DNA from: an uncultured Pseudomonadales bacterium
Lineage (GTDB): Bacteria > Pseudomonadota > Gammaproteobacteria > Pseudomonadales > Azotimanducaceae
Length of the DNA: 64,000 nt
Direction of reading: 5' to 3'
Assembly: GCA_958296405.1 (NCBI GenBank)
Contig: OY282519.1
Coordinates: 976,132 to 1,040,131 of the forward strand
Under the pieces are notes generated by a model. It was given only the letters and a program-made list of their open reading frames with translations, did not search any database and was not told the origin of the DNA. The position numbers and the translations under genes were made by a program. Positions 1,893 to 20,682 of the stretch are shown here, one piece after another; the first letter of the stretch is position 1; every line of letters starts with the position of its first letter.

Positions 1893-2882
1893 ATGCGGAT
1901 GTTGGCACAAGACAGGGCGTTCCACCTGAATTTGCGGGTGGACGGGACGGACGACGCGGAGGCGCTGCGGCGGCTGCGGGAGCTGGAGGGGATCGACCGG
2001 ATCCGGAAGGAGGTGGGTCTGGCGGAGGCTCTGGCGGCGTTCGGGGTGGGGCGGAGCACGTGCTACGCGCGGAGGAAGCGGCTGCTCGAGGAGGGGGTGA
2101 AGGGGCTGGTTCCGCGCAGCAGCCGGCCGCGCAGCCATCCGGGGCGGCGGTGGACGATGGCGGATGCCAGGCGGGTGGTGCGCATCCGCCGCGAGACGCC
2201 GTGGGCGGGGAAGGCGAGGATCGCGCTGGACTTGGCGGAGCGCTGGCCGGAGCGGGCGCTGAGCGAGGCGACGGCAGGGCGCATCCTGCGCTGGGCGGTG
2301 GAGCGCGGGCATGCGCGGCCATGCTCGTTCTGCGAGGGGAGGGCCGCCGCGAAGCGGCGGCGCGACTTCACCGGCGCGCATGCGCGCCGGTGGAAGCCGC
2401 GCGACATGCACTTCGGCGTGCAGTTCGACCACATGACCACGCACATTGACGGCGTGACCCGCAAGGAGTTCCGCGCCGTGTGCCCGCGCACGCGGCTGCA
2501 GTGGGCCAAGGTCTACTCGCGCGCCACGGCGAACACGGCGCGGGCGTTCCTGCGCGAGGCCGTCGGCAAGCTGGACATCCGCGCCGTGCAGGTGGACGGC
2601 GGCTCGGAGTTCATGGCCGCCTTCGAGGAGGAGTGCAGGGCGCTGGGGCTGCCGCTGCTGGTGCTGCCGCCGCGCTCGCCGCAGCTCAACGGCATCGTCG
2701 AGCGCGCCAACCGCACCGCGCGCGTCGAGTGCTGGAGCCAGTACCGGGGAGAGCTCACCTGCGCCGCCATGAACGAGGCGCTCGCCCGCTACCTCGACTA
2801 CTACAACAACCGACGCCGACACCGCTCCCTCGGCATGAAAACGCCCGCCGAGTTCGCTAGGATGATCGAGGCGGCTGCCTGA
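1893..2882 (+). CDS. IS481-family DDE transposase
   Basis: Catalyses cut and strand transfer of its own element. The N-terminal half carries helix-turn-helix DNA-binding segments (about residues 30-140). The rve/RNase H-like catalytic core follows, with acidic residues D179 (QFDHMT), D235 (QVDGGSEF) and E270 (NGIVERANRT); the last two are spaced as in DDE enzymes. The C-terminus has the usual YNNRRRHRSLGMKTPAEF. The ATG at 1893 is preferred over an in-frame ATG at 1878 because a GGGAG ribosome site lies eight bases upstream. Length of 329 aa is normal and the frame is intact. Confidence 0.93.
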   Translation: MRMLAQDRAFHLNLRVDGTDDAEALRRLRELEGIDRIRKEVGLAEALAAFGVGRSTCYARRKRLLEEGVKGLVPRSSRPRSHPGRRWTMADARRVVRIRRETPWAGKARIALDLAERWPERALSEATAGRILRWAVERGHARPCSFCEGRAAAKRRRDFTGAHARRWKPRDMHFGVQFDHMTTHIDGVTRKEFRAVCPRTRLQWAKVYSRATANTARAFLREAVGKLDIRAVQVDGGSEFMAAFEEECRALGLPLLVLPPRSPQLNGIVERANRTARVECWSQYRGELTCAAMNEALARYLDYYNNRRRHRSLGMKTPAEFARMIEAAA

Positions 2883-4336: not shown

Positions 4337-4694
4337 GGGCCTCTCCACAAGCGGGTTTCGCCATGATAGGGCAATGCCGCGCATCCCTTGGCGCCTGTCG
4401 CTGCCATTGATTTGGACGGCGGGCGCTGACCGGCTGGCCGGCCGTTTGGATCGAGTGCCTTGCGGACCCCGATGGGCGTTTCCCGCGCTTGGTGGCATGC
4501 ACACCGGCAAGTATGATGGGCCGATTCGCAGCTATTTGGCCCAAAGGGTGCCGTACAACATCTCGGAGGAAAGAAGGGACTGGTATCGTCGCAAGTCGGC
4601 GCGATCCAGGCAGAGAAAGATCGCCGCCAGCAACGGCGACTTGGATTGTGCGCCAAGCCAACTCAACCGCCCTACCTTCAATCCCGCGGCGCTG

Positions 4695-5744
4695 ATGCCC
4701 TCCATCACGCCCCATGGGCTGCGTACGCTGTCTCTGTTCTCAGGTGGCGGCGGACTAGACCTTGGCTTTGAACGGGCCGGATTCAAGCACGTTGCCAGCT
4801 TTGACGTTCTAGACATCTGCGGCGCCACGCTCCGAGAGAGCCGTCCCGCTTGGTCAGTATTCAGCGGCAGCGATGGTGATGTGACACAGCAGCAGTGGTC
4901 ACGCTTCAAGGGGTTGGTGGATGTCATCCACGGCGGGCCGCCTTGCCAACCATTCTCGATTGCAGGAAAGAGGTTCGGAAGCCGCGATGAAAGAGATATG
5001 TGGCCGGCCTTTATTGCCGCTGTTCGCGATGTCGAGCCCGCCGCGTTCGTGGCGGAAAATGTGCCTGGGCTGTTGGACGCGAAGTTTAGCAACTATGTGA
5101 ACGAGACGATTCTCGAACCGTTGGCCGCGAAGTACAAAATAGTCAAGTTCCGCCTCCTCGCCTCAGACTTTGGCGTGCCGCAGGTACGTCGGCGCGTCAT
5201 ATTCGTGGGCTTCCTATCGAACGATGCCTCGCGCCGCTTCGACGTGCCGCTGCCGACGCACCGTTACTCCAGCGATCTTTTCGATGGCGCCAACCGCACT
5301 AGCGGTGCGAGAGCTGCCTTGGGTCTGCCAGACACCGGCTTCGACTGTTGCGCGCCGACGATTCGATCTGGTTTCACGGGGCCAAGAAAGTCGACGAGCA
5401 TCTTGAACAGCCGTGCCAGCCAAGCAGTTTGGGCCAAGCTGCGAATCTGGCCCAACGGTGTGCAACTCAATCGGGCGGCCGCAGCCAGGTTCCCACCGGA
5501 AAACGGCCACTTCCGGCTTGCCGTGCAGGACTGCGCCCTGTTGCAGGGCTTCCCAGAAGACTGGAGCTTCGCCGGAGCGGCCTATCAGGTGATTGGTCAG
5601 ATCGGCAATTCGGTGTGTCCGCCGGTCGCCTATGCCATCGCCAAGTCCGTCGCCATCGCCTTGGGCGCTCGGATGCACAACGCTTGTAGGGAGGCGGCCG
5701 GGCGTGTCAGCACTAGGCTCGCCGCCCCTCAAAGCGCGGCCTGA
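4695..5744 (+). CDS. C5-cytosine DNA methyltransferase
   Basis: Transfers a methyl group from SAM to C5 of cytosine in a specific DNA site. Motifs are in canonical order: motif I LFSGGGGLDLGFERAGF (about 14-30), motif IV GGPPCQPFSIAG with nucleophile C84, motif VI AENVPG (E121), motif VIII QVRRRVIFVGF, and motif X QIGNSVCPPVAYAIAKS. At 349 aa it is a normal monospecific enzyme with a short recognition region. An in-frame ATG at 4497 would add 66 hydrophilic residues; neither start has a good ribosome site. Base composition is a little more AT-rich than its neighbours. It converges on, and overlaps by 32 bp, the tail of the GIY-YIG ORF, suggesting the modification half of the adjacent cluster (inference). 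Confidence 0.92.
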   Translation: MPSITPHGLRTLSLFSGGGGLDLGFERAGFKHVASFDVLDICGATLRESRPAWSVFSGSDGDVTQQQWSRFKGLVDVIHGGPPCQPFSIAGKRFGSRDERDMWPAFIAAVRDVEPAAFVAENVPGLLDAKFSNYVNETILEPLAAKYKIVKFRLLASDFGVPQVRRRVIFVGFLSNDASRRFDVPLPTHRYSSDLFDGANRTSGARAALGLPDTGFDCCAPTIRSGFTGPRKSTSILNSRASQAVWAKLRIWPNGVQLNRAAAARFPPENGHFRLAVQDCALLQGFPEDWSFAGAAYQVIGQIGNSVCPPVAYAIAKSVAIALGARMHNACREAAGRVSTRLAAPQSAA

Positions 5745-6166
5745 GGCGGTAGTGAAGATAGGACTCTAGGAGCGACGGAACTTCCTTCGGCCAATTGGCC
5801 GGGAGCCTGATGTTTGCCCTACCGCAGTTCTGCATGATCCACTCACCTACGTCATCTTTACTGCCTTGGAAGCCGAACTCACGTCGGTTTTTGCAGATGT
5901 CTGTCGCGAGATCACTGACCGTACGATCGATTCCATAATGGTGGTTGGTGAAGCGTGCCGAGTGGCTGGTTTTTTCCGATGCGCAACCACTTGTCATCTA
6001 GAAAGAAAAGATAGACCGCGCTTTCACCCTGCAACAGTCGTGTCGGGCGTGTGTGCGGACACGGTGAGTACTCTAACTTTACATGATTCCAATCGCCGGC
6101 CTCTACCAATTTTGGCACTCTCTTGAAGTCATCCAAAACGGCGCGAATTTGAGCCTCCCTAATCAT
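5713..6166 (-). pseudogene. GIY-YIG-like nuclease ORF, split by a frameshift
   Basis: Two overlapping frames together encode one plausible protein of about 150 aa. The first frame (ATG at 6166) gives ESAVYLFFLDDKWLRIGK. It then runs out of frame at an A6 run (5975-5970 on the minus strand) and stops at 5912. Dropping one A continues as TSHSARFTNHHYGIDRTV and ends in LLESYLHYRLRPRFEG. The joined order (VYLFF...RIGK...ARFTNHHYGI...LLES...PRFEG) resembles a GIY-YIG-type nuclease fold; the exact family is not certain. The start overlaps the SbcC-like stop as ATGA, so it belongs to the same operon. The shift may be a real mutation, phase variation or a sequencing error. The region is AT-richer than its surroundings. 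Confidence 0.6.
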
Positions 6167-9100
6167 GTTTCCGTTAAATCGGACTGTTCAGTGCTTGGCG
6201 CTGATTCGCCGATGGGGTGCCTTTTGATGCACTTGGTGAGGTCTACTGCGTGGGCGTTGTCGGAATGGTCGCCAGTGAGATAGGCGTTGGGGTGGCAGGT
6301 CATGACGACCACTTGGATTTGCTGCGCGGCTTCGTTGAGCAGGCCGCGAATCCATGCCATTCGGTGCGGGTCGGATTGGGTGAGGTGGTCGTCTAGGATC
6401 AGGAAGCTGCCGATGGCTTCGGCGATGGCGAGGCGCAACAGCAGGCCGATTTGTTCTCGGGTGCCGACGGAGACGTCGTTGAAGGAGCGTTCGTCGTCGC
6501 CCAAGCGGATGCCGGTGGCGTCTAGCTGCGGGCCGATGCCCACCGCGCTGTAGCGGCCGTCGGTGAGTGCTGCCATGCGCTCGCTGACGGGTTTCACGAG
6601 GGCGGCGCCGAGATGAGTGGCGTCTTCCTTTTCGGCTTCGACCAGCGTTTCGCGCAACAGTTTCCAACCGCCGTATTCCACCTCTAAGTCGTGCTCACGG
6701 CGGGCGAGGACGATCAGCGCTTCCTTGGCTTGCGCAGCTTGCTCCTCGATGTGTTGGCCGCCGACTTGGCTGAGGGCGCCTTGCGCTGCGCTCAGGGCGT
6801 TGCGCCGCGAGGTCGCTTTGTCGGCGGCGTCTTTGGCGAACTGCTCCAGTTCGGCTAAGTCGTTTGGCGTGTCGTCCACCGCCGGAAGAGCACCCAAGAG
6901 CGCCTGCTGCTTGTCTCGCGCTGCTTGCAAGCCGGGAACGTCCAAATCTTCCGCGATGGTGCGCAGGGTCTCGGCCTGGCCTTGCAGCGTCGCCAGCGCG
7001 TTGTTCGCGTCCTGCAGATGCTGGCGGGCCTCGTCTCTCGCCTTCGTTTTCGCGCTTTCGTCTTGGGTGATTTGGGCGAGGGCTTCGCGTGCGTCTTCGG
7101 TGGCGGCGGTGGCTTCGGCTTGAATGGCGCGGACCTCGGCGTCCACCTTGGCCAGTTCTTCATCTAGTCGCTGTTGGTTCGCCTCCGCTTCGTCCAGCAC
7201 CTCGCACCAGCGTTCGTTTTGGGCGATGGCGTCTTGGATGTCTTGCTGCGCGCGTTCCGCATCCCGGTGGCGGTTGTCGAGTTGTGCGCCACCTTGCTCT
7301 ACTTCGTGGGCTAGCCGGGCGTGCAGCGATTCACGCCGACGCACTTCGTCCTTGAGCGTTTCGATTGCGCGGGCGAGCTCCTCTTCGTCGCCCAGATCGC
7401 CACTTTCTTCGACGTAGTCGTCTACCGAAACGCCCGCTTCCATCCGCTTGGCGGCGGCATCGCGGCGTTGCTGCGCCAAGGCTTCGGCGACCACCGTTTG
7501 CTGTTCGAGTGCATCGACGTTCTCGCTGCCAAGCCGTGCTTGGGTAGCCTTGTTGTCGTGTTCGTCCGCCAGCGCGAGCAGTCTGTCGGCTTCCTGGCGT
7601 TTGTCTTCGAGAGCGCTGGTGGCCTCGACATCGGCGCGCTCAAAGAGGCTGTCTGCATACTTTCGCCAACGATCGGTGGCCGTTTCCGCCTCTTGGCGAA
7701 GATGCCGGCCACCGCCGCGCACCTGCAGCACGCCCACGCCGTCAATGACGAGCCGTAGTTCTCGTTCGGCTTCGTAGCGCACCCGCTCGCCGGCGTTGAA
7801 CTCGCGTGTCCGCGTCTCGCCGTCCAGCGTCACTTCCGCGGTGCTGGCGTTTTCCGGCGTGAACTCGAGGGCGAGCCCCACGGCAAGTTTGCCCTCGGCC
7901 ACGCGGCGTTCCGCGTCTAGCTGTTGGAGTTCGTCGAGCTCCGCTTGCGCGGGGGCGTTCAACCCTTTGGCTTTATCGCGAGCTTCCTGCGCCTGTTCCT
8001 CCCGCGACTTCGCGGTTTTCGCCGATGCCGTCGCTGCGTCGCGTTCAGCGGCGAGTTCGCGCGCTCGTTGGGCGGCAGCGACGTAGCGCGCGCAGTCGCG
8101 GTCGCGCTCCAGCAGCTTGACTTGGCCCTTGTCCGCAGACGTTTTCGCTTCCGCCTCGGCCAGCAAACTGCGTTGTTCCTCAAGCGTTCTAGTGCGCTGT
8201 TCGATGTCTGTCTGGATCTTTTGGGCCGCGGTTTCGCGCTTGGCGATCTTCTGGGCGTCAGCGACCTGCGCTTGCAGTTCCTTTTTCTGCTGCGTCAGCT
8301 TCAATTGCCGGTTCCGTGCCTCCTGTTCGCGCAGTTGCCGGCCCTGTTCGGCGTCTCCAGACTCCAATTGCTGAACGCGCTCCTTGGCTGCCTTGGCCTT
8401 CGGTTGCACGGCAGCGAGGGCCCCCTCTGCCGCCGTGAGCTGCTCGCGCGACGCCTCGACTTCCCTTTTCGCCGCGGCGACCGCGGTCGCTTTCTTGTCC
8501 CGGTTGCGAACTTGTTCCTGTGCTTTCTTCAGTTCGTCTTCTGCGGCGGCAAGCGTCTTTGCGGTGGCGGTGCGCTGCGCTTGCTGTCGCTCGGCCGTTT
8601 GCGCCGCCTGGAGATCGCCGGCGGCTCGTTCAGCTTCTGCGTCGGCTTCAAGGACCTGACTCTGCAGTGCGGCAACGCGCGAACGAGCGGATGCGCTGTC
8701 CTCAACTTGCTGCCGTGCGTCTTGTTCGCGTTGTCTGGCTTCGCTCATGGCGGCCTTGAGCGCGGGCCACGGCGCGCCCTTGGCCGTCTTCTTCTTGCCA
8801 GCGGCGGTGAATGCCTGGGCGACCCGCGCTTGCACGGACGCCAGCACCTGCTTGAAGCGGGGGTCTGCGGCCAGCGCTTGCAACGCTTCCGTCAAGCGCT
8901 CGTGGCCGCTGGCGTTCGGGTCGTCTGTGAGGCTGGCTTCGAGGATGGCATCGATGTTGCGCTGGTCGCCGAGCAGGGCCGTGGTGATGAACGAGGCGGG
9001 CATGCCCCGCTTGCCGCCTTTGCCACCGGGCGGTTCGATGCCCCAGCGCAGGATGTTCTGCAACGAACCTTCCACTTCCCGGCCGCGGCTTTTCTGCGAG

Positions 9101-9423
9101 AACTCCCGTCCGTCGCGTGAAAAGTCGAGATAGGTGTGGCTGCCACTGCCACCGAAGCGCTTGCGCACCCGCAAAATGCGCTGCGGTTCCTGCTCGAAGG
9201 TGAGTTCGACCGAAGGTGGGCCATCCACGTTCCAGGCGCGCAGTGGTTGGGCCGCCGTCGAGCCGACCGGCAGCAGCAACGCTGCGCGGATGGCGTTCAC
9301 CAAGGTGGACTTGCCGAGTTCATTCGGGCCGTGCAGCACGTTCAACCCGGGTTTCATCGCTACGCCGGCAGAGGCGATGCCGGCGCAGTCCTTCACGTTC
9401 AGTTGGCGGATCCACATGGCCAT
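6163..9423 (-). CDS. SbcC/Rad50-like (YhaN-like) coiled-coil ATPase
   Basis: SMC-like ABC ATPase expected to pair with the SbcD-like nuclease encoded just upstream and to act on DNA ends. Walker A GPNELGKST at about 32-40, long alanine/glutamine/arginine-rich coiled coils in between, ABC signature SVGTREQIGLLLRLAIAEA at about 985, Walker B FLILDDH at about 1007 and MTCHPN switch histidine. Size of 1086 aa is normal. Oddly, no CxxC zinc-hook motif occurs anywhere; instead a beta-type insert (LEFTPEN...EVTLDG...LRLVIDGVGVLQVRGGG, about 515-570) sits between the coils. The start TGATG overlaps the SbcD-like stop, and its stop overlaps the next start (ATGA). Confidence 0.88.
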   Translation of the reverse strand: MAMWIRQLNVKDCAGIASAGVAMKPGLNVLHGPNELGKSTLVNAIRAALLLPVGSTAAQPLRAWNVDGPPSVELTFEQEPQRILRVRKRFGGSGSHTYLDFSRDGREFSQKSRGREVEGSLQNILRWGIEPPGGKGGKRGMPASFITTALLGDQRNIDAILEASLTDDPNASGHERLTEALQALAADPRFKQVLASVQARVAQAFTAAGKKKTAKGAPWPALKAAMSEARQREQDARQQVEDSASARSRVAALQSQVLEADAEAERAAGDLQAAQTAERQQAQRTATAKTLAAAEDELKKAQEQVRNRDKKATAVAAAKREVEASREQLTAAEGALAAVQPKAKAAKERVQQLESGDAEQGRQLREQEARNRQLKLTQQKKELQAQVADAQKIAKRETAAQKIQTDIEQRTRTLEEQRSLLAEAEAKTSADKGQVKLLERDRDCARYVAAAQRARELAAERDAATASAKTAKSREEQAQEARDKAKGLNAPAQAELDELQQLDAERRVAEGKLAVGLALEFTPENASTAEVTLDGETRTREFNAGERVRYEAERELRLVIDGVGVLQVRGGGRHLRQEAETATDRWRKYADSLFERADVEATSALEDKRQEADRLLALADEHDNKATQARLGSENVDALEQQTVVAEALAQQRRDAAAKRMEAGVSVDDYVEESGDLGDEEELARAIETLKDEVRRRESLHARLAHEVEQGGAQLDNRHRDAERAQQDIQDAIAQNERWCEVLDEAEANQQRLDEELAKVDAEVRAIQAEATAATEDAREALAQITQDESAKTKARDEARQHLQDANNALATLQGQAETLRTIAEDLDVPGLQAARDKQQALLGALPAVDDTPNDLAELEQFAKDAADKATSRRNALSAAQGALSQVGGQHIEEQAAQAKEALIVLARREHDLEVEYGGWKLLRETLVEAEKEDATHLGAALVKPVSERMAALTDGRYSAVGIGPQLDATGIRLGDDERSFNDVSVGTREQIGLLLRLAIAEAIGSFLILDDHLTQSDPHRMAWIRGLLNEAAQQIQVVVMTCHPNAYLTGDHSDNAHAVDLTKCIKRHPIGESAPSTEQSDLTET

Positions 9424-10595
9424 CAGGCGGCGTCCTGCATCAGCCGATACAGATGATGCAGCGCGCGCTCGGCGTGCTCCTTCTGTTGCGGGTCGCCATC
9501 CTGCGCCAGCGTTTGCAGGCGTTGTGCGGTGGCGCGCAGGACGTCTGGCATGTCGGCGTTGAACTGCTCGATGGCGTCCTCCGTCATCAAACGCAGCCCT
9601 TCCCGATTCACGTTCAGCACGCCGACGCGAGGCGTCGCCGCCAACGAGCCGCCGAGTGACGCCAGCAAGCGTTCGGCTTCGTCGTACTCGCCCATCGGCA
9701 CAGCCATGTTGAGCGTGAGGCGTAGCACGGTCTTGCTCAGCTCGCCTTCGTCGGCCAACGCGCGCAGTTCTGGCATGGAATGGCAGGTTTCCTCGCGCCA
9801 CTTCCAGGCGCCCACTGCCTCCTTGTGAACCAACGGTCGGCGGCGGCGGTCCAAGGGGAAGAACACCACCGCAACGTTGCCGGTGTCCTTTTCGCCGAAA
9901 TTGGTGGCTTCCGGCGCTCCCGGATAGATAGTTGGAGCAGATGCACTGGGTTCCACTTCTCGGAAGGCGTGGGTGTCGCCGATGGCGAGGTAGTCCAAGC
10001 CGCGCTCGGCGGCGCTGCCGCGCGGAATCGGAAAGTTCGTCTGGTGGCCATCGATGTCGAAGGTCTGCCCGTGTACCAAACCGATGCGGATGCGCTCGTC
10101 GCCGGCTTCGCGTTTGGGCAGGGATTCCACCAGTTTGGTGTCGCCGGCGGCAGAGGTGCAGGGGGTTGCCACCACCACGGCATTGTCGCCGAGCGGCAGC
10201 TCCCATCCCGGTTCGTCCACCACATGCACATAGTCTGGCAAGCCGCGGCGAAAAGAATGCGTTGCGTGATAGATGGAGTTTGAGGCCAACGGATCGTGGT
10301 TGCCCGGCAGCAACACCACCGGCCGTTGCCAATGGCGGCGTTGGAACTCCTTTAGCACGCCGCCCCACCAGAGCGGGGCAGGCGCCGGTTCGTCGAAAAG
10401 GTCTCCGGCGCATAGCACGGCGTCCACATTGCGGCTCTCGGCCACATCCAGGATGCGTCCCACCACCTCCAAGCGCGCCCGCGTGAGGCGGGTTTCCTGT
10501 TCACGCTCGAAAGCGGGGAAGCGGCGGCCTAGGTGCCAGTCCGCGGTGTGCAGCAAGGTCAAGGCCACGTCGCTGTCTCCCGGTGCGTTGCTCAT
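9423..10595 (-). CDS. SbcD/Mre11-like (YhaO-like) DNA exonuclease
   Basis: Calcineurin-type metallophosphoesterase, probably a Mn-dependent DNA nuclease working with the SbcC-like ATPase. Metal-binding motifs are in order: TADWHLGRRF (D19, H21), AGDLFDEP (D65), LPGNHDPL (N99-H100-D101), LVHGQTFD, and AIGDTHAFREV in place of the common GHxH. About 390 aa, close to SbcD/Mre11 length; the C-terminal part (about 290-390) lacks an obvious known motif. The ATG at 10595 overlaps the helicase stop as ATGA, and its own TGA overlaps the downstream ATG, implying translational coupling and balanced expression of the complex. Confidence 0.9.
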   Translation of the reverse strand: MSNAPGDSDVALTLLHTADWHLGRRFPAFEREQETRLTRARLEVVGRILDVAESRNVDAVLCAGDLFDEPAPAPLWWGGVLKEFQRRHWQRPVVLLPGNHDPLASNSIYHATHSFRRGLPDYVHVVDEPGWELPLGDNAVVVATPCTSAAGDTKLVESLPKREAGDERIRIGLVHGQTFDIDGHQTNFPIPRGSAAERGLDYLAIGDTHAFREVEPSASAPTIYPGAPEATNFGEKDTGNVAVVFFPLDRRRRPLVHKEAVGAWKWREETCHSMPELRALADEGELSKTVLRLTLNMAVPMGEYDEAERLLASLGGSLAATPRVGVLNVNREGLRLMTEDAIEQFNADMPDVLRATAQRLQTLAQDGDPQQKEHAERALHHLYRLMQDAA

Positions 10596-13500
10596 TCGAT
10601 CACGAATTCCGCGCTCAGCAGGCGCTCGCCCGTCGGCATGGCGTAGCGGCGCTGGTGCGCGTGTTGCTTCCACTTCTGATAGGTCTCGTCCTCGTGGCGG
10701 GCGAGGGCGGCGAGCTCGCTTTCGATTTGCTCCACTTTCTGCTCCAAATCCCGCACGCGAGCTTCGGCTTTGGCGCGATTGTCCGCGCCTACGCTTTGCT
10801 CGCGCCGACGCTCGGCAACCGCGAGGCTCTGCGCCTGTTGGCGCTTGGCGCGGCGCAGCACGAGGATGCGGTCGGCCAGATACTGATCGAGCTGGTTCAC
10901 GGCTTGCTCGAAACCCTGTTGGTTGAGTTCCGCCACGCGCCCCTGTTCTTCAAAGAGCTCTTCGTCCACCACTTCGTCTAGATGTGCGGCAGAAACGCTT
11001 AGCGGTTGCGCGAACTCGGCCACATCTTCGCAAGGCTGGCGCAGCAGTTCCAAGGCCGCTGCGGCGGGGCGCAGCACTTCGGCGTCCTCGAACACCGCAG
11101 TGACGCGCAGCCGTTCTTCGGATTCGAAGCCGTCGTAGCGCACCCGCGTCAGCGCCAAGCGGCCGCGGCTGCCGCGATGTTTGCGGAGGGCGCCGGGGGC
11201 GTTCGGCTGCAAGCGCAAGCGCACGCGGAACTCGCCGGCGCACTGGCCGCGCGCGGAACGCACTGCCGCTTCGATGAGTGGGTGCCCCACATGCAACTGA
11301 TCGGCGCCGGCGGCCAACCCACGGCTGCTGCCGAGTACCACGGTGCCGCCGCGTTCGAACGGTTTGGGGAGCTTGGTTGAAGCGCCGAAGTGCAGCACGT
11401 CTTGGCCGGCTCGTTCGCCTTCTCCCCAAGGCACTGCCTCGGCGTCCAGATAGGCGGCGAGCACGCTCCTCAACTCTGCGTCGAGTTCCTTCAGCGCGGG
11501 CGCCAACTCGCCTTGGATGCGTTCGAACACCTGCCGCACGGAGGCGTCCAGACGCTGCTCGATGAGGCCCATGGTGCGTTCGTGCGCGCGGTCGAGTTCG
11601 CGGCGGCGTTCCTCCATCGTGTCGCGCAGTTGGCGCAGTTCCGCCACCACGTCCTCTTGCGAACGCGCCCGTTCCCAAATGCGTTGCACCTCCGCCTCGA
11701 AATCGGCGCCGAGCGCGGAGGTGAGCGCTGCGGAGGAGTCTTGGCGGGAGGTCTGCAGCACGACGTCTGACATATCCAGCACTTTGCCGAACAGCTCCAG
11801 CTTGCTGCTCAGGATGTCGAACGTGAGTTGCTGCGCCTCGTTGTCTTCGGCAAGGAAGTTGAACACCGTCACGTCGCGTTGCTGCCCGTAGCGGTGGCAG
11901 CGGCCGATGCGCTGTTCAATGCGCTGCGGATTCCACGGCAGGTCGTAGTTCACGATGGTGTCGCAGAACTGCAGATTGAGGCCCTTGGCGCCGGCTTCGG
12001 TGGCAATCATCACCGTCGAGCGGGTGCGGAACTCGTGTACCAGCGCCAGCCGCACCGCCACTGTTGGGCTGGGGCGCAAGTGCTGCGCCATCTCCGCTTC
12101 CACCTCTTCGCGCCAAACGCGCAGCGCCGCGGTCGCCCGGGGCGAATCGTTGACGCCGCGGAACAAGGTGACGTCCTGCTCGCTCAAGGCGGTCTTCTGC
12201 ACCAGCAGTTCACTCAAATAGGCCTGCGTGGTGAGGGATTCGGTGAAGATCAACACCTTGCGGCGGTCCGGCGCGCGATCCATCACCAGTTTGACGACCT
12301 TGACGAAGCTCTCGGCCTTGCTGTCTGCGGGCAGGGCCTTGGCGCGATGCACGAAACCCTCCACCCGTTCGAGTTCCGCTTGGACGGCGGCTTTGTCCAT
12401 GCGCGGCAAGGGTGGGGAGCTTGGACCGTCCGTGAGTGGCGCTGCTGGCGCCGGCGCGCTCTCCGCTGTGGCTGGCTCCTCGGCTTCCTCTTCCAAATCG
12501 TCCAAGTCTTCGGCTTCATCGGCAGTGCCATTGCCGAGCAGCCGCCGCAACCGAGTGGCCACGCTGGTCAAGCTCGCCGCGAGGGCCGCGTTGGAAGAAG
12601 CCATGCGGCGGTGGAATCCGATCAGCAGCATCTTCCGCGCGCGGCCGCTGAATGCGAAGAGCTGCGGTTCCAGCAAGTAATCCGTGACGTCTTCGTAGAG
12701 CGCTTTTTCGGCGGCGCTCATTCGGTAGGAGTACAGCCGTGCCTCGCGGCCCACGAACGGGCGCTCCAAGTACGGCATGGCTTGGCGCCGCAGCGTGCGC
12801 TGCACCACCCGCTTCAGCCGCCGCTGCAATTCGCCGGCCTGCTCCGCGCCGATTCCGCCTTCGTTGTTGAATAGCTGATCGAACGTCGGCTTGTCGCCGA
12901 GCAACGTGCCGGTGCGGTCGATGTAGCCCACCAGCGCCCACAGCTCGTCCAGCGAGTTCTGCATGGGCGTGGCGGTGAGCAGCAGCACCGGCGCCGCGCC
13001 AATCAGCCGCTTCACGCGATGCGCCGTGCGCGCGTGGGGGCTGTCTTCGTCGTAGACGCCGTGCTTGTCGTAGCGCCGATGGATGCTGGCGAACACCTCG
13101 TGGGCTTCGTCGATCAAGCACAGGTCGAACGGCGGCGCTTGGCGCAGCCGCTCGAAGCCGCGCTCGCCGCCGGCGTATTCGCGTCCAGCGATGAAGACGC
13201 CGGGTGCCGCGACATCCACGTCGGCGTCCGCGGCTTCCTGCACTTCCACCCCAAACAACTCGCGCAGCTCGCTCTGCCACTGTCCAAGCAACGGCCGCGG
13301 CACGATGATCAACACTCGGCTCTTGCCTTCCGCCAGCAGTTGGGCGATGACGAGACCAGCCTCGATGGTCTTGCCGAGGCCCACTTCATCCGCAAGGATG
13401 CAGCCGCCTTCAGGGATGCGCCGCAACGCGAACGTCACGGCTTCGATCTGATGCGGGTTCGGGTCCACGCGCCCGCGCCGCTGCGCCGCCACATAGCGGC

Positions 13501-13666
13501 GTTTCTCGCCCGCCCGCCGCAAGCGGACGAGTTCCTCGGCATGGAAGCGGCGATGGATGGGATGCAACGGGTGCGTCAACGTTTCAGCTTGGCGGAAAAA
13601 GCGTAGCAGAAGCCGGGGCGGGCTCGTGCCAAGTGGCGTGGGATCAGCGCTTGGGCGCGTGCCCAC
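10592..13666 (-). CDS. SNF2/RapA-like DEAH helicase
   Basis: ATP-driven DNA translocase or remodeller of the SNF2 group. Motif I ILADEVGLGKTIEAG at about 90-104, motif Ia LIIVPRPLLGQW, motif II DEAH at about 186, motif III LTATPMQN, motif V TEAGAKGLNLQF, motif VI RIEQRIGRCHRYGQQRDV near residue 590. The ADEVGLGKT loop is typical of RapA and the DISARM DrmD helicases. A glutamate/alanine/proline-rich linker separates the two RecA lobes, and the last 350 residues are largely coiled coil. No ATG exists near the N-terminus; GTG at 13666 is chosen, TTG at 13714 is possible, and neither has a ribosome site. First gene of the coupled cluster. Confidence 0.85.
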   Translation of the reverse strand: MGTRPSADPTPLGTSPPRLLLRFFRQAETLTHPLHPIHRRFHAEELVRLRRAGEKRRYVAAQRRGRVDPNPHQIEAVTFALRRIPEGGCILADEVGLGKTIEAGLVIAQLLAEGKSRVLIIVPRPLLGQWQSELRELFGVEVQEAADADVDVAAPGVFIAGREYAGGERGFERLRQAPPFDLCLIDEAHEVFASIHRRYDKHGVYDEDSPHARTAHRVKRLIGAAPVLLLTATPMQNSLDELWALVGYIDRTGTLLGDKPTFDQLFNNEGGIGAEQAGELQRRLKRVVQRTLRRQAMPYLERPFVGREARLYSYRMSAAEKALYEDVTDYLLEPQLFAFSGRARKMLLIGFHRRMASSNAALAASLTSVATRLRRLLGNGTADEAEDLDDLEEEAEEPATAESAPAPAAPLTDGPSSPPLPRMDKAAVQAELERVEGFVHRAKALPADSKAESFVKVVKLVMDRAPDRRKVLIFTESLTTQAYLSELLVQKTALSEQDVTLFRGVNDSPRATAALRVWREEVEAEMAQHLRPSPTVAVRLALVHEFRTRSTVMIATEAGAKGLNLQFCDTIVNYDLPWNPQRIEQRIGRCHRYGQQRDVTVFNFLAEDNEAQQLTFDILSSKLELFGKVLDMSDVVLQTSRQDSSAALTSALGADFEAEVQRIWERARSQEDVVAELRQLRDTMEERRRELDRAHERTMGLIEQRLDASVRQVFERIQGELAPALKELDAELRSVLAAYLDAEAVPWGEGERAGQDVLHFGASTKLPKPFERGGTVVLGSSRGLAAGADQLHVGHPLIEAAVRSARGQCAGEFRVRLRLQPNAPGALRKHRGSRGRLALTRVRYDGFESEERLRVTAVFEDAEVLRPAAAALELLRQPCEDVAEFAQPLSVSAAHLDEVVDEELFEEQGRVAELNQQGFEQAVNQLDQYLADRILVLRRAKRQQAQSLAVAERRREQSVGADNRAKAEARVRDLEQKVEQIESELAALARHEDETYQKWKQHAHQRRYAMPTGERLLSAEFVIE

Positions 13667-18279: not shown

Positions 18280-20601
18280 TTAGAACAGCGCGAGCTGCGT
18301 GTCGTCGCCGATCACTTGCTCGAAGTGGAGGCCCAAGGCTTCCAACACGGGCTCGGCCACTGGGCGTACCTGCTTTTGCACATAGTGCTCGCGGTCTAGC
18401 TCGGCCGTCACGTTGTCCAACGGTTCCGGGCCCGCTTGGGTGATCACATAGGACACCATCCGCCCGGGGCTTGAGCGGGATTTGCGCGCCGCGGCGACGT
18501 GTGGCGGCGTGTTCTTGTCGTAGGCGTCCAGACCTTTCCTCAAGCCCTTGCGATAGACGAGGGCGGCGTCCGCCTCGCCGGCGCGCACCGCGCGCACCAC
18601 GTTCGCCAAGTAATCGGCCACCGGCGCTTCCTTGAAGAGCCGGGCGTAAAGCTCCCGCTGCACCGTCTTGGCGAGTTCGGTCCAGTCGCGGCGCACCACT
18701 TCCATGCCGACGAAGTCCAACGCTTGGCCGTCTTCCAAGGCGCCGACGTAGCGCTTGCGCGCGCCGCCGGCGCCGTGCCGCACCGCCGGCAGGAAGAGCC
18801 GCGCGTACACCTTCTCGAACTCCAGCTCCAAGCGGCTTTCCACGCGCCAGCGCTCGCGCACATGGTCTGCGACGGCGGCGTTCAACTCCTCGGTCAACCC
18901 TTCCCCCAGCGCTCGCGCATGTGCCGTGTCAGCGGCGCCAGACAACACGAACAGGCTGTCTGTGTCGCCGTACAGCACCGTGAAGCCACGCGCCTCGAAC
19001 CAACCCTTGGCCCAGAGGAGGAAATGCCGGCTTTGGCCGGTGATGGCGTTGGCGATGGCCACGTTGTGGAAGCGGCAGGCCGGTGTGCCGAGTACGCCGT
19101 AGAACGAGTTCATGAGGATTTTGATGGCCTGCGAGGCGATGTCGTCGTTGCCGCGCTTGGCGGCCTCCCGCGCAGCCGCGAGGCGATCCAACATCTTCGG
19201 CAGGATGGCTTCGCCGCGGCGGAAGGCGGCGCCTGTGACGGTGCGCACCACGTCGTCCTGTGCGTTGGGGTCTGCCACGAACGCGAGCGGATCGATGTTG
19301 AAGGTGCGCATCACGCTGGGGTAGAGGCTCTTGAAGTCGAACACGCAAACGTTGTCGTGCAGCCCTTGTTTGGGTTCGAGCACATGCCCGCCGCCCTGCG
19401 CGACGGACACCCGCGCGTCGCTCCCCCGCGCCGTGGGCGCGACGATGCCGCGTTTGCCGAGCTCGGCGAGATAGACGAAGTCGAACGAGGCGATGCTGGC
19501 GGCCACCCGGTCTGGCGTCATGCCCGTGAGGCGGCTGCGGGCGAGGGCCAACGGCACCAAGTTCATCGCCTCGACGATTTCCAGGGCAAGGCGGGCGTCG
19601 GTGCGGGCATAACGGGCGAAGCCCTCTAGATCGTCTCGATAGCGGGCCATGATTTCCCCGGCGCGGTCGCGGACATCGCCCTCGATGGCTTTGCCTTCCC
19701 CCAGCACGCGCCGGGCCACGGCGTCCAACGAATAGTCGTCGAAGCGCACGAAAGCGCCGCGCAGCAGATCCATGCCGTCCAGCACCACGCGCCCGGGGAT
19801 GTTGGCTTGGCCGCTGCCAAAGTAGCCTTGGGCGGCGCGGATGCGCATTGCGCCCGGCGTTCTGCCCAACTCGAACGGGCGCTTCAAGCGCTTGGCGATG
19901 CGCGCCATCACACTGAGGTCGAAGTCGATGACGTTCCAGCCGGTGAGCACGTCTGGGTTGGCTTCGCGCACACGCTGGACGAATGCCTCCAAAGCCTCGC
20001 CTTCGTCCACCGCAGCGTGAGCGCGCGCCGGCATGGGCCGTCCTTCGGCGTCCACCACATGCACTTCGTCCAAGCCGCAGCCGTAAAGGGCGATGGCCAA
20101 CAACTGTTCCGCGTTCGCATCCGTTTCGATGTCGAAGGACAGCACGCGGGGGGTGATGTCGACGTGCGCGGGGCGGGCATCGGGTTCGTTGAACACCCAG
20201 TCAATGCCGTCGCCCGGCTGCGCTTCGCCTTCGATTTCGACGCCGCCCTTGATGTCTCGATCGATGAGCCAGCGCACCGCGAACCGCACATCCGCCTCGA
20301 ACGTGTCGATGCCTTGTTCGTGCAAGCGATCCCGCAGCGGCGGCGCGTCGGGCGGGGTGGCCACCTCGACGACCACCATCGGTTCGCCGGCGAAGTTGCG
20401 GCGCTCGGTGGGGCGCTGGCGCGTGGCGCCGGCGGCGTGGGCACGGTCCGCGTCGGCGGCGCGCACGAAGAAGCACGGCGTGGCGCGGGCGTCCCGGATG
20501 AGAAAGGTGGCGCCGTCTTCCAAGCGGCCGAACAAGTGCAGCACCGGCGCGCCGCCCAAGATGCGGTAGCTCGCCTGCATGACGAAGCCGCGCGCCTTCA
20601 T
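18280..20601 (-). CDS. polB: DNA polymerase II (family B)
   Basis: Replication-restart and damage-tolerance polymerase with 3'-5' proofreading. Exo I LSFDIETDAN, Exo II around GWNVIDFDLSV, Exo III with YARTDARLALEI, Pol A DFKSLYPSVMRTF, Pol B KILMNSFYGVLG, Pol C YGDTDSLFVL. All catalytic acids are present. The extreme C-terminus DDTQLALF carries a QLxLF sliding-clamp-binding motif as in E. coli Pol II. 773 aa from the ATG at 20601. In E. coli it is SOS-controlled; no LexA box was recognised here. Confidence 0.95.
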   Translation of the reverse strand: MKARGFVMQASYRILGGAPVLHLFGRLEDGATFLIRDARATPCFFVRAADADRAHAAGATRQRPTERRNFAGEPMVVVEVATPPDAPPLRDRLHEQGIDTFEADVRFAVRWLIDRDIKGGVEIEGEAQPGDGIDWVFNEPDARPAHVDITPRVLSFDIETDANAEQLLAIALYGCGLDEVHVVDAEGRPMPARAHAAVDEGEALEAFVQRVREANPDVLTGWNVIDFDLSVMARIAKRLKRPFELGRTPGAMRIRAAQGYFGSGQANIPGRVVLDGMDLLRGAFVRFDDYSLDAVARRVLGEGKAIEGDVRDRAGEIMARYRDDLEGFARYARTDARLALEIVEAMNLVPLALARSRLTGMTPDRVAASIASFDFVYLAELGKRGIVAPTARGSDARVSVAQGGGHVLEPKQGLHDNVCVFDFKSLYPSVMRTFNIDPLAFVADPNAQDDVVRTVTGAAFRRGEAILPKMLDRLAAAREAAKRGNDDIASQAIKILMNSFYGVLGTPACRFHNVAIANAITGQSRHFLLWAKGWFEARGFTVLYGDTDSLFVLSGAADTAHARALGEGLTEELNAAVADHVRERWRVESRLELEFEKVYARLFLPAVRHGAGGARKRYVGALEDGQALDFVGMEVVRRDWTELAKTVQRELYARLFKEAPVADYLANVVRAVRAGEADAALVYRKGLRKGLDAYDKNTPPHVAAARKSRSSPGRMVSYVITQAGPEPLDNVTAELDREHYVQKQVRPVAEPVLEALGLHFEQVIGDDTQLALF

Positions 20602-20682
20602 GGGGGCAGTGTACTCGCGCGCCACGGCGACGCCGCGCTGCGGGGTGCCGCCGGGCGTTGGGTTAAGGCGTGGCGCGGTGGC

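Follow-up and report, generated by a model that had tools for sequence, protein, structure and literature searches.

Among described systems, those close to the locus studied here include SbcCD/Mre11-Rad50, in which the canonical motif V of the phosphoesterase reads GHxH, and the two-gene pairs carrying a GD(W/R)H motif, which we take to be YhaO/YhaN-like. Rad50/SMC-like ATPases also form the core of the Wadjet and Lamassu systems, where their partners, according to PMC10586767, are JetD or a range of LmuA effectors. In PMC12839542, the BrxHII protein of bacteriophage exclusion (BREX) systems is described as RapA-like. Here we analysed a 64,000-nucleotide stretch of contig OY282519.1 (the window), from an uncultured bacterium of the Azotimanducaceae (Pseudomonadales) whose genome of 3.83 Mb is a single contig. 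This window holds a chain of three genes (the trio) coding for an SNF2 helicase-like, an SbcD/Mre11-like and an SbcC/Rad50-like protein. Judging from sequence comparisons, the trio is a conserved, patchily distributed and apparently unnamed SNF2-Mre11-Rad50-like unit with a putative operon layout. No description of an SNF2-SbcD-SbcC operon was found in the portions searched of the open-licence literature. In the BREX census PMC12839542, the section on auxiliary nucleases holds no such operon, and SbcC, Mre11 and metallophos- are absent from the main text.

The three genes lie head to tail on the reverse strand. The first (10592-13579) codes for a predicted SNF2/RapA/DrmD-like helicase with Pfam SNF2-rel_dom and Helicase_C domains; its start codon was taken to be a TTG, a second open start being a GTG at 13666. 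It is followed by the gene of an SbcD/Mre11-like phosphoesterase (9423-10595), with a Pfam Metallophos domain and Mre11/SbcD matches in the PDB, and by that of an SbcC/Rad50-like coiled-coil ATPase of the ATP-binding cassette (ABC) type (6163-9423), which matches Rad50 in the PDB. A longer open reading frame (ORF) listed for the latter, 6163-10413, was rejected as an over-extension. An earlier interpretation made from the letters alone (the sequence-only reading) had these genes chained by overlaps, and their translations bear this out, with 4 bp shared between the SNF2 and SbcD genes and 1 nt between the SbcD and SbcC genes. The AT skew is strong, about -0.3, over the SbcC-like gene (6001-10000 of the window), for which the codon content of the coiled coil is perhaps responsible.

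The helicase has DrmD as its best PADLOC match (4e-118), and it misses both NCBIfam equivalog cut-offs for DrmD, scoring 398.6 bits where 950 are required and 221.7 where 610 are. By sequence, its nearest solved structures are those of RapA. Since its AlphaFold model is only moderate (mean predicted local distance difference test, pLDDT, of 68.6; predicted TM-score, pTM, of 0.40), the Foldseek search, in which RapA was again nearest with TM-scores of 0.23-0.31, serves only to back the sequence result.

The SbcD-like protein scores 63.3 bits against the NCBIfam sbcd model, under the cut-off of 77.65. Its relatives share the motifs DWH(L/I)G, GD(L/I)FD, GNHD and GDTH. In the 28 SbcD proteins of trio-type loci, GD(L/I)FD is found in 27, GNHD in all and GDTH, at the place of motif V, also in all; GDTH recurs in three further trio members, and a fourth relative (genome G799) has GDHH. 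Among 79 relatives from outside such loci, motif V reads GHxH in 59, GD(W/R)H in 14 and neither in 6, so the change from H to D is common to a wider subgroup. The SbcC-like ATPase has a Walker A motif GPN(E/D)LGKS and a Walker B motif LDD. A CxxC occurs in 2 of the 26 trio-type ATPases (some of them partial), solely at index 5-6 from the N-terminus, and no zinc-hook CxxC was seen in the coiled coil of any of the 26. No trio protein passes an NCBIfam cut-off, and their PADLOC matches are spread over scattered families that make up no one system. Elsewhere in the genome we found two other SbcD-like proteins, both with GHxH, the gene of one being followed by an ORF whose ATPase-like product carries Walker A; the trio is thus not the only such pair in this genome. 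Housekeeping SbcCD, which the sequence-only reading had named, together with an unrelated methylase, as an explanation that would refute it, was rejected as the identity of the pair in view of the missed sbcd cut-off, GDTH, the lack of a zinc hook and the two other SbcD-like proteins.

We then considered how often the trio recurs. A close SbcD (68-100% identity) is present in 13 of the 206 genomes of the family, our own included, and in all 13 it adjoins an SNF2 gene; among the 12 other genomes, G198 has this gene cut by the contig end, and in G194 and G195 it is divided between two frames. SbcC adjoins in 11 of these 12, as a partial gene in G194; in the twelfth, G195, the contig stops inside SbcD. 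Scanning GTDB genome contigs with SbcD and analysing the best 80 loci, we counted 21 in which the larger part of the protein is matched at no less than 44%, at L070 in two segments. Five are family genomes already counted; the other 16 lie outside the family, in 15 genomes whose record titles name Bryobacterales, Vicinamibacteria, Acidobacteria, Planctomycetota, Verrucomicrobiota, Rokuibacteriota, a delta proteobacterium and several Myxococcota lineages. An SNF2 gene is adjacent in 15 of these 16 loci (all except L068) and an SbcC match is present in 15 (all except L057), while at L060 and L070 trio genes are split over frames. No SNF2 match was obtained in the 57 loci L075-L131. Thus the order of the three genes is found across several phyla. 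In the 25 loci with all three genes, the overlap between SNF2 and SbcD is exactly 4 bp in 16 (starts picked by script). Moreover, the three proteins diverge in step over 17 loci, their pairwise distances being correlated (Spearman 0.79-0.84), which fits the expectation for a unit inherited together.

The trio is rare. Of 398 genomes sampled evenly from the phylum, our own is the sole one with an SbcD or SNF2 protein that is close; G597 has an SbcD match of 34% and no SNF2 match. In the phylum of G610, a metagenome-assembled genome of the Kofleriaceae, 5 of 282 sampled genomes gave a strong SbcD match: G610 itself (locus L067), G823, G780 and G711 carry the trio, and G799 has SbcD-SbcC with no SNF2 match, so that SNF2 is adjacent in 3 of the 4 further genomes. 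Within the genus of our bacterium, the trio occurs in 4 of 9 genomes; of the five genomes without it, two have a completeness of 97% and 100% and the remaining three a lower one. Its neighbours differ in the other loci of the family, G202 excepted. In G183, copies of the two genes that flank the trio in the window are on other contigs than the trio, whose contig ends about 2 kb past SbcC. Finally, the SbcD proteins of L059 and L074, the Acidobacteria and delta-proteobacterium copies, are 72% identical, which hints at transfer. A related layout was noticed at L205 (3521-8519), where a trio-type SbcD-SbcC pair (about 45% identity, GDHH) without an SNF2 match is followed by a 374-aa ORF without a PADLOC match.

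One trio stands in a known defence context. In the Kofleriaceae locus L067/L180, the genes BrxE-BrxA-BrxB-BrxC-PDC-S27-PglX-PDC-S02-PglZ-BrxD-BrxHI lie directly 5' of the trio, and the trio forms the last three genes of this BREX operon (L180:335-19900; L067:27-15000), with BrxHI and SNF2 overlapping by 4 bp. The gene set presumably corresponds to BREX type 6.

Given this BREX-embedded copy, the patchy spread and the mostly differing neighbours, we propose that the trio is an SNF2-Mre11-Rad50-like machine directed at foreign DNA, a reading to which we give even chances. In such a machine, the SNF2 protein would load onto duplex DNA, translocate and strip bound proteins, the Rad50-like dimer would recognise DNA ends or unusual structures, and the Mre11-like subunit would then cut the invading DNA. 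We infer that the three genes are co-transcribed, that their products form a complex with nuclease activity and that foreign DNA is its target. A more specific version, which we put forward tentatively and would not bet on, is that the trio represents a so far undescribed family of defence systems: an SNF2 translocase of the RapA/DrmD type would feed foreign DNA to a dedicated Mre11-Rad50-like nuclease with GDTH, acting either alone or as an effector added to BREX.

Several observations weigh against the proposed explanation. First, the BREX linkage concerns one locus, and no match to BREX proteins (E <= 1e-8) was found in the other trio loci compared. Second, family counts show no enrichment of defence families in the genes that flank the trios, compared with controls. 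We counted PADLOC families, not genes, at E <= 1e-20, and found 29 in 87 proteins from family flanks and 11 in 90 from other flanks, against 94 in 110 proteins from control regions, all of which were drawn from the window's own family. The flanks come from 24 loci, with L044, L045, L062 and L066 left out, and the other-flank tally leaves out three BREX proteins of L067, which were counted apart. Genes were called with a codon-based caller plus gap filling, by which atypical genes may be missed, and those shorter than 100 aa or longer than 1600 aa were dropped beforehand; of the proteins left, 87 of 90 in family flanks, 90 of 106 in other flanks and 110 of 127 in controls were scanned. From the wider flanks, seven proteins of L180 and two of L181 were scanned. 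Matches in the flanks include AbiEi, AbiEii, MTase_II and GajB-type helicases, and those in the controls include Cas1, Hma and DrmD models. Third, collections of mobile elements gave no close relative of the trio: not among 259 plasmid records (all below 60% identity), 8 phage records or 28 viral-contig loci (at most 35%), and the idea that the trio is cargo of known phages or plasmids was dropped for this reason. Fourth, SNF2 is absent at L068 and was not found in G799, and G202 (L040) keeps some synteny, since the upstream neighbour of the window's trio has a 73% relative there, at a distance of about 5.7 kb from the trio. As single neighbours, we also recorded an AbiLi-like protein at L074 and a PD-T4-6-like one at L201.

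Since the controlled scan of the flanks showed no defence enrichment, a role in repair has to be weighed as well. There, the trio would be an accessory machine of DNA repair or chromosome maintenance, in which the RapA-like SNF2 protein would remove stalled RNA polymerase or other obstacles so that the Mre11-Rad50-like pair could process the cell's own broken ends. The structural proximity of the SNF2 protein to RapA and of its two partners to Mre11 and Rad50 suits this explanation, as does the lack of close copies in the plasmid, phage and viral-contig collections. However, a repair machine fits poorly with the rarity of the trio in the family, in the 398-genome sample and in the phylum of G610, with the copy that ends a BREX operon and with the presence of two other SbcD-like proteins in our own genome. 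We hold it to be the main alternative, though rather unlikely.

The BREX-embedded copy could also be taken to mean that the trio is an accessory module of the BREX or DISARM type, which works only with a modification system encoded elsewhere in the genome. In line with this, DrmD is the best PADLOC match of the SNF2 protein, and methyltransferase genes adjoin the trio both in the window and at L035. Against it, the other trio loci compared have no BREX match nearby, and no DISARM gene is among the ten Pfam-scanned sequences, eight of them window neighbours, the search for BREX or DISARM genes in our genome having been confined to the window. Such a dependence seems improbable to us and ranks third.

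Beyond the trio, the sequence-only reading had described a system of five genes, in which a GIY-YIG nuclease and a cytosine methylase converging on it complete the chain, and in which the methylase marks self DNA, so that unmarked DNA comes under attack by translocation and nucleases. The methylase itself was correctly identified: the gene at 4695-5744 (forward strand) codes for a C5-cytosine DNA methyltransferase of 349 aa (Pfam DNA_methylase, 4e-52) with intact PCQ, ENV, QxRxR and GNSV motifs. The nuclease gene turned out not to be a single ORF. It is broken into an N-terminal piece of 84 aa (5912-6166, reverse strand) and a C-terminal piece of 94 aa in another frame (5713-5997, reverse strand), both of which are matched in a single frame, at 48% and 73% identity respectively, by an intact 155-aa relative (G205, L164:5768-6235). 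Consequently, the two terminal overlaps exist but belong to different ORFs, the one with SbcC (6163-6166) to the N-terminal piece and the 32-bp one with the methylase (5713-5744) to the C-terminal piece. Neither piece matches a GIY-YIG model in Pfam, NCBIfam or PADLOC, nor do two intact relatives in Pfam; a phmmer search of the PDB with one intact relative returned nothing relevant, and a plasmid search with the N-terminal piece gave no match. The label GIY-YIG comes from motifs read by eye. As a candidate type II restriction-modification pair, the two genes would combine a methylase with intact C5 motifs and a putative restriction gene that is split over two frames, with no intact cognate enzyme.

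The closest relative of the locus, in G189 (L034; SbcD 96% identical), bears on what these genes are. It has the trio and both of its neighbours, without the methylase and without the GIY-like gene: the blastn alignment stops at 4425 and resumes at 6188, so that 1762 bp of the window (4426-6187) face 65 bp. This stretch has a GC content of 0.59, compared with 0.653 for the trio and 0.666 for the window, and its edges bear merely short, chance-like repeats. The relatives of its genes are not linked either. Relatives of the N-terminal piece occur in 3 of 205 other family genomes, with no significant methylase match in the 9-12 kb read around each. Methylase relatives (E <= 1e-40) occur in 8 of 205, and neither a trio nor a GIY-like gene was present beside them in the fetched flanks, which span roughly 1.5 kb per side and are shorter where a contig ends. 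Conversely, 50 loci or stretches of flank tested at other trios gave no match to the GIY-like gene and a single match to the methylase, a partial one of 35% at L035. Because of the empty site and the unlinked relatives, the five-gene chain is best read as the trio beside an insertion; from these alignments, the methylase and the broken GIY-like gene are a separate 1762-bp insertion, not trio components. Self/non-self marking by this methylase is accordingly unsupported, the five genes were not seen together in unrelated genomes, and what recurs there is the trio. The adjacency of the genes and their small overlaps, together with another methyltransferase gene converging on the end of SbcC in G205, are what speaks for a five-gene system, which, as a conserved system, is contradicted by the empty site and the unlinked relatives and which we now judge extremely improbable.

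Some further features were noted around these genes. In the sister genome G205, the gene converging on SbcC (L035:4945-5841, forward strand) codes for a different DNA methyltransferase (PADLOC MTase_II) and occupies the same place as the window's methylase. In G003, G004, G006 and G009, a methylase relative is followed by a shared ORF of 232-248 aa (L219:2480-3178, L218:712-1458) with an ELK stretch, PD-(D/E)XK nuclease-like by eye; the two copies tested gave no PADLOC match. An IS481-like transposase gene (Pfam rve_3; 1893-2882, forward strand) lies inside a stretch (1737-2987) that faces 100 bp in L034, marking another insertion or loss next to the locus. A family B DNA polymerase gene (18280-20625, reverse strand) lies upstream of the trio, at a distance of about 4.7 kb. 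Transfer RNA (tRNA) and Rfam scans of the whole window returned nothing.

If the proposed defence role is true, the trio would be a bacterial immune counterpart of Mre11-Rad50 end-processing with an altered metal-site motif, GDTH. A conserved operon of Mre11-type nuclease, Rad50-type ATPase and SNF2 protein would be a case of an end-processing machine of the repair type that has become specialised as a unit of its own. The BREX-embedded form offers a direct experimental entry. Compared with known systems, the trio shares with DISARM a helicase that best matches DrmD models, but this helicase falls under both DrmD cut-offs, and neither drmA, drmB, drmC nor any other DISARM gene was among the ten Pfam-scanned sequences, eight of which are window neighbours. 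With BREX it shares the one relative inside a BREX operon; the proteins scanned at the window's trio include neither PglX nor PglZ, both of which are present in L067/L180 only. Like Lamassu, it has a Rad50-like ATPase in an operon-like arrangement with a predicted nuclease, yet its LmuB match is weak (2.5e-8), LmuA and LmuC models are not among the PADLOC matches listed, which for two of the proteins number at most 25, and its nuclease is of the Mre11 type. The YhaO/YhaN-like pairs likewise combine a phosphoesterase, with GDWH or GDRH, and an ATPase, whereas six such loci (L046-L051) show no SNF2 match at E < 1e-5, and their ATPase, with 782-892 aa, is smaller. With a phosphoesterase and a Rad50-type ABC ATPase encoded by paired genes, the trio falls within the broad Mre11-Rad50 superfamily. 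It resembles SbcCD/Mre11-Rad50 in the order of the two genes, phosphoesterase then coiled-coil ABC ATPase, in both folds and in most motifs, and differs from it in having GDTH instead of GHxH, a coiled coil without the zinc-hook CxxC, a sub-threshold sbcd score, a patchy distribution and an SNF2 gene ahead of the pair.

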